From assembly GCA_023700985.1 (NCBI GenBank), contig JAMPXV010000002.1:1-45657 (forward strand): 45,657 nt of DNA. The letters run 5' to 3'. Below the pieces are notes generated by a model, which searched no databases, was not told the origin of the DNA, and saw only the letters and a list, made by a program, of their open reading frames with translations. The DNA comes from Lysobacter sp. GTDB taxonomy: Bacteria; Pseudomonadota; Gammaproteobacteria; Burkholderiales; Usitatibacteraceae. Position 1 is the first letter of the stretch. Every line of letters begins with the position of its first letter. Both the position numbers and the translations under genes were made by a program. Positions 4,096 through 7,858 of this stretch are shown piece by piece.

Positions 4096-5811
4096 ATGCA
4101 CGGCATCGCCGTGTCCGGCGGCATCGCCATCGGCCACGCGCACCTCTTCCTCGGCATGTCCACCGAGGTGGACCACTACGCGATCCCCCCGCACGACGTC
4201 GGCCGCGAGCAGCGCCGCTACGACCGCGCCGTCAAGGAAGTGCGCGACGAGCTGAAGGAGCTCGCCGAGAGCGTGCGCCACAGCACGGCCGCCGAGCTCG
4301 CGCCCTTCGTGAACGTGCACCTCATGCTGCTCGAGGACGCCGCCTTCGCGGAGGCGCCGCGCGAGATCATCGCCGAGCAGCGCTGCAACGCCGAGTGGGC
4401 CCTGCGCACGCAGTTGGACGAGCTCACGGCGCAGTTCGACGACATCGAGGACGAGTACCTGCGCGAGCGCGAGACCGACGTGCGCCAGGTGGCCGAGCGC
4501 GTGCTCACGGCGCTGGCGGGCTCCAAGCGGCGCCTGGCTATGAAGCCCACGCGCCAGGACACGGACATGATCCTCGTCGCCCGCGACCTGTCGCCGGCCG
4601 ACGTGATCCTCTTCCGCGAGCACCCCTTCGCGGCGTTCGTGACGGACATGGGGGGGGCGACCTCGCACACGGCGATCATCGCGCGCTCGCTCGCGATTCC
4701 CGCCATCGTCGCCCTGCACCACTCGCGCACGCTCATCCGCGAGGACGAGCTCGTCATCGTGGACGGCACGCAGGGCGTGCTCATCGTCAACCCGGATCGC
4801 GCGGTGCTCGCCGAGTACCGCCTGCGGCAGAACCAGGCGCGGCTGGAGCGCGAGAAGCTCAAGCGCCTGAAGACGGCGCCGGCGGCGACCCTGGACGGCA
4901 CGGTGGTACAGCTGCAGGCCAACATCGAGCTGCCGTCCGACCTGGACGCGGTCAGGGCGAGCGGCGCCGCGGGCATCGGCCTGTTCAGGAGCGAGTTCCT
5001 GTTCATGAACCGGCGCGACATGCCGGACGAGGACGAGCAGTACGAGGCGTACCGCGAGGTCGTCGAGGGCATGAAGGGGAAGCCCGTCACGATCCGCACG
5101 CTCGACCTCGGCGCCGACAAGGCGCTCGACGGCCAGGAGAGCATGGCCGAAAACCCGGCGCTGGGGCTGCGCGCCATCCGCTACTGCCTTTCCGAGCCGC
5201 AGCTCTTCAACACGCAGCTGCGCGCCATCCTGCGCGCCTCGCGGCACGGCAAGGCGATGATCCTCATCCCCATGCTCTCCTCCTACGCCGAGCTCAACCA
5301 GGCGGTGGCCGCCGTCGAGCGGGCCAAGGAGGAGCTGAAGACGGAGGGAGTGAAGTTCGACGCCTTCGTGCCGCTGGGCGGCATGATCGAGATCCCGGCG
5401 GCGGCCATCGCGCTGCCGATGTTCATCCGCAAGCTCGACTTCCTCTCCATCGGCACCAACGACCTGATCCAGTACACGCTCGCCATCGACCGCGCCGACG
5501 ACGCGGTGGCGCACCTCTACGACCCGCTGCACCCCGCGGTGCTCTCGCTCATCTCCGGCGTCATCCGCATGGCGCACCAGGCCGAGAAGCCCGTGGCGGT
5601 GTGCGGCGAGATGGCGGGCGACGTGCGGCTCACGCGGCTGCTGCTGGGCATGGGGCTGCGCCACTTCTCCATGCACCCGGCGAGCCTCCTCGAGGTGAAG
5701 CAGCGCGTGCTCTCGACGAGCCTGCCCGACGTCGCCCCGCTCGTGGCGCGCATCATGAAGGCCGACGACCCCGAGAAGATGGTCTCGCTCGTCGACAAGC
5801 TGAACGCCTGA
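4096..5811 (+). CDS. ptsI: Phosphoenolpyruvate-protein phosphotransferase (enzyme I)
   Basis: MHGIAVSGGIAIGHA...; GGATSHTAIIARSLAIPAIV; IGLFRSEFLFMNR; LSIGTNDLIQYTLAIDR. An in-frame ATG exists at 4051. Confidence 0.94.
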   Translation: MHGIAVSGGIAIGHAHLFLGMSTEVDHYAIPPHDVGREQRRYDRAVKEVRDELKELAESVRHSTAAELAPFVNVHLMLLEDAAFAEAPREIIAEQRCNAEWALRTQLDELTAQFDDIEDEYLRERETDVRQVAERVLTALAGSKRRLAMKPTRQDTDMILVARDLSPADVILFREHPFAAFVTDMGGATSHTAIIARSLAIPAIVALHHSRTLIREDELVIVDGTQGVLIVNPDRAVLAEYRLRQNQARLEREKLKRLKTAPAATLDGTVVQLQANIELPSDLDAVRASGAAGIGLFRSEFLFMNRRDMPDEDEQYEAYREVVEGMKGKPVTIRTLDLGADKALDGQESMAENPALGLRAIRYCLSEPQLFNTQLRAILRASRHGKAMILIPMLSSYAELNQAVAAVERAKEELKTEGVKFDAFVPLGGMIEIPAAAIALPMFIRKLDFLSIGTNDLIQYTLAIDRADDAVAHLYDPLHPAVLSLISGVIRMAHQAEKPVAVCGEMAGDVRLTRLLLGMGLRHFSMHPASLLEVKQRVLSTSLPDVAPLVARIMKADDPEKMVSLVDKLNA

Positions 5812-5884: not shown

Positions 5885-5913
5885 TTGTCCGGCCCGGGCC
5901 GCGGCCCTATAAT
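5885..5913 (+). promoter_or_regulatory. Sigma-70-type promoter of the metX leader
   Basis: TTGTCC (5885-5890), 17-bp spacer, TATAAT (5908-5913); predicted start near 5920, directly before the riboswitch. Confidence 0.7.
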
Positions 5914-5920
5914 CCCCCTC

Positions 5921-5975
5921 ACGCGCCGAATTTGAACTCAGCTTGCGGGCGCGAAATAAATGCGGCTAAAGCGAG
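5921..5975 (+). ncRNA. SAM-II-like riboswitch
   Basis: CGCGCC(5922-5927)/GGCGCG(5948-5953) stem enclosing GAATTTGAACTCAGCTTGCG, followed by AAATAAATGCGGCTAAAGCGAG. Matches my recollection of the SAM-II pattern (stem, A-U-rich loop, AUAAAUGyrGCUAAA); upstream of metX. Confidence 0.8.
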
Positions 5976-5994
5976 AGGCAGGTCTCCCGAAGAG

Positions 5995-6031
5995 AACCCG
6001 ACCCCGCGACAGCCGGTCGGGTTTTTTCTTT
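5995..6031 (+). terminator. Intrinsic terminator between riboswitch and metX
   Basis: AACCCGACC (5995-6003) pairs with GGTCGGGTT (6015-6023), followed by TTTTCTTT; lies 14 bp before the ATG. Confidence 0.85.
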
Positions 6032-6044
6032 GGCGAGCAGCGAT

Positions 6045-7271
6045 ATGACCGAGATTCCTGTCGGCTCCGTGGGCGAAGTCGCGCCGCAGCGCGCCGGCTT
6101 CCTCGAGCCCCTCATCCTCAAGGCGGGCAAGACGCTCGCCTCCTACGAGCTCGTCTACGAGACCTACGGCACGCTCAACGCCGCGCGCTCCAACGCGGTG
6201 CTCGTCTGCCACGCCCTCTCGGGCAACCACCACGTCGCCGGCTGGCACGCCGACAGCCCCAGGAAGCTCGGCTGGTGGGACAACATGGTGGGCCCGGGCA
6301 AGGCCATCGACACCGACCGCTTCTTCGTGATCGGCCTGAACAACCTCGGCGGCTGCCACGGGTCCACGGGGCCGGCCACCATCGACCGCTCCACGGGCCA
6401 GCCCTACGGCGCCAGCTTCCCGCTGGTGACCGTGGAGGACTGGGTGGCATCGCAAGCGCGCCTCATGGACCGGCTGGGGATCGAAAGGCTCGCCGTGGCC
6501 ATGGGCGGGTCGCTCGGCGGCATGCAGGCGCTGCAGTGGACGCTCGACTACCCGGACCGCATCGCCCACGCGATCGTGGTCGCCGCCGCGCCGAAGCTCT
6601 CCACGCAGAACATCGCCTTCAACGACGTGGCGCGGCAGGCCATCGTTTCCGACCCGGACTTCCACGGCGGCAACTTCTACGCGATGAAGACCTTCCCCGC
6701 GCGGGGGCTCAAGCTCGCGCGGATGCTGGGCCACATCACCTACCTCTCCGAGGACCTGCTGGGCGAGAAGTTCGGCCGCGACATCAAGGGCGCCGACTAC
6801 GGCTTCCACTACGAGGTGGAGTTCGAGATCGAGTCCTACCTGCGCTACCAGGGCGACAAGTTCGCGCAGGTGTTCGACGCGAACACCTACCTGATCATGA
6901 CCAAGGCGCTCGACTACTTCGACCCGGCGCGCGAGACGGGCGGCGACTTCGCCAAGGCCGTGTCCGCCGCGAAGGCGGGGTTCCTCGTGGCTTCCTTCAC
7001 GAGCGACTGGCGCTTCCCGCCGGAGAGGTCGCGCGAGATCGTGAAGGCGCTGGTGAAGGGCGGCAAGAACGTGACGTATGCCGAGATCGACGCGCCGCAC
7101 GGCCACGATGCCTTCCTCCTCGACGACGTCCACTATCACCGCGTGATCGCCTCCTACATGGACAACGTGGCGGCCGAGGTCGGCGCCGGCGCGCGCACGC
7201 GGCCGCTCGTCGTGGGCGGCACCGAGCTCGAGGAGATGAAAGGCTACGCGGCAGGGGGGAAGGCGAAATGA
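6045..7271 (+). CDS. metX: Homoserine O-acyltransferase MetX
   Basis: [12 protein letters not shown]...; [41 protein letters not shown]; alpha/beta hydrolase fold, ending with the [11 protein letters not shown] active-site His. Confidence 0.93.
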
Positions 7272-7858
7272 CTCCGCGCTTCGAATTCGAGCTCATCGCC
7301 TCGTGGATCCCGCAGGGCGCGCGCGTGCTGGACCTGGGCTGCGGCGACGGGGAGCTCCTCGCGGGGCTCATGGCCACCCGCGGCGTGAAGGGCTACGGCG
7401 TGGAGATCGACCCCGACCGCGTGCTCGCGGCCGTGGGCCACGGCGTCAACGTGATCCAGATGGACCTCGAGAGCGGCCTGTCCACCTTCGAGGACGACGC
7501 CTTCGACTTCGTGATCCTGTCGCAGACGCTGCAGGCCATGCGCCGCTCGGACCTGATCCTGAAGGAGATGATGCGCGTGGGCCGCGAGGGCATCGTCACC
7601 TTCCCCAACTTCGGCTACTGGCGGCACCGCCTGGCGATCCTGCGCGGGCGCATGCCGGTTTCGGAGGCGCTGCCCTACCAGTGGTTCGACACGCCCAACA
7701 TCCACCTGTGCACGGTGAAGGACTTCGAGGAGCTGTGCATCCAGGTGGGCGTCGAGATCCTCGACGAGCGCGTGCTGCACGAGGGCGGGATCGTGGAGAC
7801 GCTGCCCAACCTGCTGGGGAGCCTGGGCGTCTTCCGGTTCCGTCGCAAGAAGGGGTAG
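7268..7858 (+). CDS. metW: Methionine biosynthesis protein MetW
   Basis: [34 protein letters not shown]...; overlaps metX stop (ATGA). Confidence 0.92.

Follow-up and report, generated by a model that had tools for sequence, protein, structure and literature searches.

The 45,657-nt stretch of DNA that was analysed (the window) carries on its plus strand a metX gene of the homoserine O-succinyltransferase type at 6045-7271 (NF047916, 651 bits, cut-off 560), followed by metW at 7268-7858 (TIGR02081, 260.8 bits, cut-off 189.5), the start of which overlaps the metX stop by 4 nt (ATGA). The upstream neighbour, a ptsI-like gene for PTS enzyme I, ends at 5811, and the DNA leading up to metX-metW contains, in this order along the plus strand, a sigma-70-like promoter, an aptamer of the SAM-II type and an intrinsic terminator. 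Nearly all of the closest named MetX loci come from betaproteobacteria, in keeping with an earlier note on this DNA, which had found the gene content to look betaproteobacterial. The promoter that the same note had read, TTGTCC (-35, 5885-5890) and TATAAT (-10, 5908-5913) separated by 17 nt, agrees with the consensus at 10 of 12 positions and stood up to a promoter scan with shuffles, in which one promoter was observed at 5885-5913 against a shuffle mean of 0.0. Transcription would be expected to start at about 5920, immediately 5' of the first stem of the aptamer (P1), and a TAnnnT box lies 3-18 nt 5' of P1 in 37 of 59 homologous leaders.

P1 is formed by CGCGCC (5922-5927) and GGCGCG (5948-5953) and is followed by an H-type pseudoknot, P2, which is the layout of SAM-II. 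In an alignment of 35 aptamers from collected homologous leaders, each row of which was checked letter by letter, with pairs counted per column, 98.6% of the P1 cells are paired and two of the six pairs show double changes. The core of P2 (5943-5970) joins UUGC at 5943-5946 to A5969, A5968, C5966 and G5965 and is invariant in 35/35 sequences, as is AUUU at 5930-5933, the probable third strand of the P2 triplex by homology to the SAM-V and SAM-II structures (PMC6061858). The P2a helix is also present, CUC at 5937-5939 pairing with GAG at 5973-5975 (paired in 59-87% of cells and showing double changes), although its 3 bp fall short of the 5 bp found in 60% of SAM-II RNAs (PMC6061858). The downstream strand AAATAAATGCGGCTAAAGCGAG (5954-5975) is conserved across the 35 homologues. 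Covariation in this alignment (n = 35) scores 0.176, compared with 0.071 in shuffles, 0 of 500 of which reach that value, and the score falls to 0.076 or less once the pairing partners are slid. The stem, the conserved-looking downstream strand and the CUC/GAG pairing had all been picked out in the earlier note, and each of them holds, the last as P2a. A second pseudoknot pairing named there, AGC (5940-5942) with GCT (5965-5967), was discarded, as the SAM-II fold places UUGC (5943-5946) on GC.AA instead. A pair between the base 3' of UUGC and the base 5' of GCUAAA found no support either, these positions being unpaired in 27 of the 35 sequences. The plain minimum free energy fold of the leader is unremarkable (z-score -1.75), by a method that cannot represent a pseudoknot.

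The nucleotides expected to surround the ligand, AUUU, UUGC and GCUAAA, are invariant in all 35 aptamers, the window included, and the bases that match them in the SAM-V and SAM-II structures build the SAM pocket (PMC6061858), the residue mapping being our own, by alignment. By this mapping U5932 aligns with the U that contacts the sulfonium in those structures, and the bulged U5967 and A5970 would line the pocket, with U5967 corresponding by homology to the base in contact with the SAM adenine.

A default Rfam scan at gathering level returned nothing at this site, a result that on its own would have led to the element being discounted in error. At a relaxed threshold, the Rfam SAM-II model (RF00521, SAM_alpha) aligned with the site end to end at 22.4 bits, below its gathering cut-off of 36 bits, which is a curation threshold rather than a structural feature. 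In this genus, the metX copy is longer by one nucleotide between P1 and AUUU. RF00521 also scores about 22-35 bits directly 5' of metX in congeners and other genera, and only 5 of 41 relatives reach the cut-off. In contrast, a covariance model from which all sequences of this genus had been left out (R3) matches the window at 5922-5978 with 69.8 bits and a rough E-value of 1.1e-17, the next match in the window having an E-value of 0.19. Across the whole genome only two leaders are significant with R3, those of metX and metH, and the metH copy scores 38.2 bits with RF00521, above the cut-off. The earlier note had proposed a search with RF00521 and had held that the lack of a significant covariance-model hit would speak against a SAM-II assignment. 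RF00521 itself indeed stays below its threshold here, but the objection fails, since the betaproteobacterial model matches strongly and a second such model, R2, built from the 35-aptamer alignment, recovers Rfam-certified SAM-II RNAs. Members detected by R2 occur in 194 of 250 Burkholderiales genomes, and R2 also matches genomes elsewhere in the phylum. Among the latter are twelve loci outside the window's class (L209-L220), presumably alphaproteobacterial, which score 56-67 bits with RF00521, so that the betaproteobacterial and the classical sets form one family. At 80 metX loci from named genomes, some of which had supplied seeds for R2, all 27 significant R2 matches lie on the plus strand and end 45-128 nt 5' of the metX match, with no other significant R2 match in the 554 kb that these loci comprise, which supports the control of metX-metW that had been proposed. 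Taken with the invariant pocket, the covariation of P1 and P2a and the cross-recognition between models, the R3 match makes the window element almost certainly a member of the SAM-II class, as first suggested, and SAM its presumed ligand by homology. The comparison of 194/250 genomes with R2 and 5/41 relatives with RF00521 suggests that much of a large lineage is missed at the Rfam SAM_alpha threshold.

Between the aptamer and metX lies an intrinsic terminator (5995-6031, plus strand), with arms AACCCGACC at 5995-6003 and GGTCGGGTT at 6015-6023, an 11-nt loop and a T-rich stretch at 6022-6031, the T tract being followed after 13 nt by the metX ATG (6045). Sequence, hairpin fold and the terminators of homologous leaders all agree with the strong terminator and T-run described in the earlier note; that our own scan missed this plus-strand terminator is due to its upper limit of 8 nt on loop length. 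The loop of this terminator is complementary to the ligand-binding strand of the aptamer, and the predicted antiterminator (5963-6015) pairs CGGCU (5963-5967) with AGCCG (6011-6015) and GCG (5971-5973) with CGC (6005-6007). When partial transcripts were folded, the lowest-energy fold of those ending at 6016-6021 retained P1 and formed this antiterminator, whereas from about 6023 on the terminator is more stable, with an advantage of about 10 kcal/mol in the full-length transcript, and read-through must then depend on kinetics. As the antiterminator takes up bases that would be fixed in P2 and P2a by SAM, ligand binding and antitermination are predicted to be mutually exclusive.

This complementarity recurs in the homologous leaders. 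In 37 of 59 leaders the terminator loop is a better partner for the ligand-binding strand CGGCUAAAGCG than shuffled loops are (p <= 0.05), and 0 of 300 loop shuffles matched or beat the duplex of the window; the shuffles were mononucleotide shuffles and the leaders are related, so these p-values are guides, not independent tests. Partial-transcript folds contained the antiterminator pairing in 47 of the 59 leaders, against 18.6 expected, and lacked it in the other 12. The native strand was the best-pairing one in most leaders, among them several in which it is altered to AAAACG or AAACGA, and where AAAGCG has changed in this way the loop has often changed too (e.g., CGTTTGGC in L021 and CGTTTT in L079). 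This coevolution is supportive rather than proof, given that the leaders are related. A further example is found in the metH leader of the same genome, in which AAGCGAC folds with GUCGCUU. On these grounds the antiterminator probably consists of CGGCUAAAGCG paired with the terminator loop.

Both the position of the terminator and the strand/loop complementarity favour the transcriptional platform that the earlier note had assumed, and we consider it most likely (probability about 0.88) that this SAM-II riboswitch shuts off metX-metW by transcription termination when SAM is abundant. RNA synthesis would begin immediately 5' of P1. At high SAM, the bound ligand would hold GCUAAAGCGAG in the P2/P2a pseudoknot; the terminator (5995-6031) would then form, and transcription would end before metX. 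At low SAM, GCUAAAGCGAG would be free to pair with the emerging terminator loop (CGGCU/AGCCG and GCG/CGC), delaying the terminator and allowing the polymerase to continue into metX-metW. Both the dependence of termination on SAM and the kinetic antitermination step are what we infer from this anatomy.

The strongest alternative, itself unlikely, is that a true SAM-II aptamer is followed by a constitutive terminator and that regulation takes place at translation or elsewhere. There is precedent in metA of Sinorhizobium meliloti, where a translation-type SAM-II is followed by a terminator for which prediction gave no antiterminator (PMC9373788), and the terminator does win at equilibrium in the window leader. 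Nevertheless, some 70 nt separate the aptamer from the start codon, with the terminator in between, many diverged leaders have a loop complementary to their ligand-binding strand, and the metZ SAM-II of S. meliloti was predicted to be transcriptional and yields an sRNA of terminator size (PMC9373788). Transcription termination thus remains our preferred reading, and the window element is in our view a real SAM-II of the ordinary class with the anatomy of a good transcriptional attenuator. As such, transcriptional SAM-II riboswitches in betaproteobacteria have been on record since 2007, and the original SAM-II set of Corbino et al. (2005) already took in Bordetella and terminators (PMC1273637). 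The window element shares with that class P1, the H-type pseudoknot P2, the invariant AUUU, UUGC and GCUAAA, a promoter a few nucleotides 5' of P1, a terminator and methionine genes; it differs from typical members in its short P2a, its sub-threshold RF00521 score, the extra nucleotide after P1 and its place before metX-metW in a betaproteobacterium. SAM-V (RF01826) has a ligand core almost superimposable on that of SAM-II (PMC6061858) but is translational and has an added P3 helix, and this identity was rejected for the window element because P3 is absent and a terminator lies downstream.

The locus also bears on an element described under another name. Leyn et al. (2014) give SAM_alpha only for Rhizobiales and Rhodobacterales and describe, in 35 betaproteobacteria, a new "metXZ" element with a pseudoknot, a terminator and no known ligand; it lies 5' of metXW or metZ, the latter being the downstream gene in Nitrosospira multiformis and three Methylophilales (PMC4239095). 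The genomic distribution of our family agrees with this description: R2 gave no match at metX of N. multiformis and Methylophilales, and it matches 5' of the metZ-like genes of N. multiformis (L237) and Methylobacillus (L239), with no match in one Methylotenera MAG. Compared by position and architecture rather than by alignment, the window element matches the metXZ element in genes, lineages, pseudoknot and terminator; the metXZ antiterminator was placed in GC-rich regions 3/4, unlike in our model. That the metXZ element is a separate RNA unrelated to SAM-II is very unlikely. Such a reading could appeal to the sub-threshold RF00521 score at the window site (22.4 vs 36 bits) and to the same account (PMC4239095), which had no RF00521 matches in betaproteobacteria and named the element as new; yet the P1/P2 pseudoknot and the invariant pocket bases are identical to those of SAM-II, the promoter-to-P1 spacing is similar, the models recognise each other's members, and several members from the same order exceed the RF00521 cut-off. 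SAM is a testable answer to what the betaproteobacterial metXZ element senses.

A third family is found at the same loci. RF02424 (Bp2_Cand287 of Khoo et al., 2012; Bp2_287) is modelled by Rfam as an sRNA on the opposite strand and was mapped between purF and metZ (PMC3521395). It matches the minus strand of the window at 5896-6026 with 24.6 bits, and members of the family were detected by RT-PCR and listed as expressed; a minus-strand sRNA is all the same extremely improbable here and was rejected, as RF02424 and R2 lie on opposite strands at 17 of 17 loci tested (three of them as split matches), the 5' end of the RF02424 RNA is an A-run and hairpin that mirrors the terminator, and promoter, conservation and gene order all indicate the plus strand. 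The best RF02424 match (L223, 157 bits) lies between a purF-like gene and metZ, where SAM-II core, terminator and metZ follow in order; there (L223:1501-1677) and in L224:1501-1703, RF02424 represents, in reverse complement, a SAM-II leader whose linker is longer, and has the A-run hairpin at its own 5' end. Judged from sequence, this "Burkholderia sRNA" is a SAM-II leader modelled on the complementary strand, the evidence favouring the opposite strand, and RF02424 needs re-annotation. We consider it more likely than not that the metXZ element, Bp2_287 and SAM-II are one riboswitch family with a coevolving platform, in which CGGCUAAAGCG doubles as antiterminator on the terminator loop. Our literature search, which reached few subscription papers, found no paper linking SAM-II to metXZ or to RF02424, and within that reach the match of SAM-II to metXZ, the strand reversal of RF02424 and the concrete antiterminator with CGGCUAAAGCG appear to be new. 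With the last, transcriptional SAM-II riboswitches gain a well-defined candidate antiterminator, structural work having centred on a rare translational member.

The family extends to other genes and other layouts. In the genome of the window, the second SAM-II aptamer (L001, contig C306:4130-4208) lies 5' of metH with its own terminator, and an SAH riboswitch (L248, contig C157:2856-2930; RF01057, 68.7 bits) precedes an adenosylhomocysteinase-like gene, so that the SAM cycle appears to be RNA-controlled at three loci. In other genomes, family members precede metX, metZ, metK and a MetN-like gene. SAM-II-like aptamers lie 5' of metK-like genes at L165, L206, L221 and L242, the last two with no obvious terminator and possibly translational; according to Leyn et al. 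(2014), no methionine regulator of metK is known in betaproteobacteria (PMC4239095). At L195 and L240, a SAM-II aptamer lies 5' of a gene for a MetN-like ABC transporter ATPase. Eight leaders (L142, L148, L152, L153, L161, L149, L058 and L071) carry between the 3' strand of P1 and AAAUnCGGCUAAAG an insert of about 10-60 nt that often resembles a hairpin, and such variants (L142, L148 and others) give poor or split model scores. Finally, L016, L018, L025, L026, L227 and L228 have two SAM-II-like aptamers per leader, an arrangement already known for SAM-II (PMC9481103); some have a terminator after the first aptamer only, and some of the second copies read CAACUUGC.
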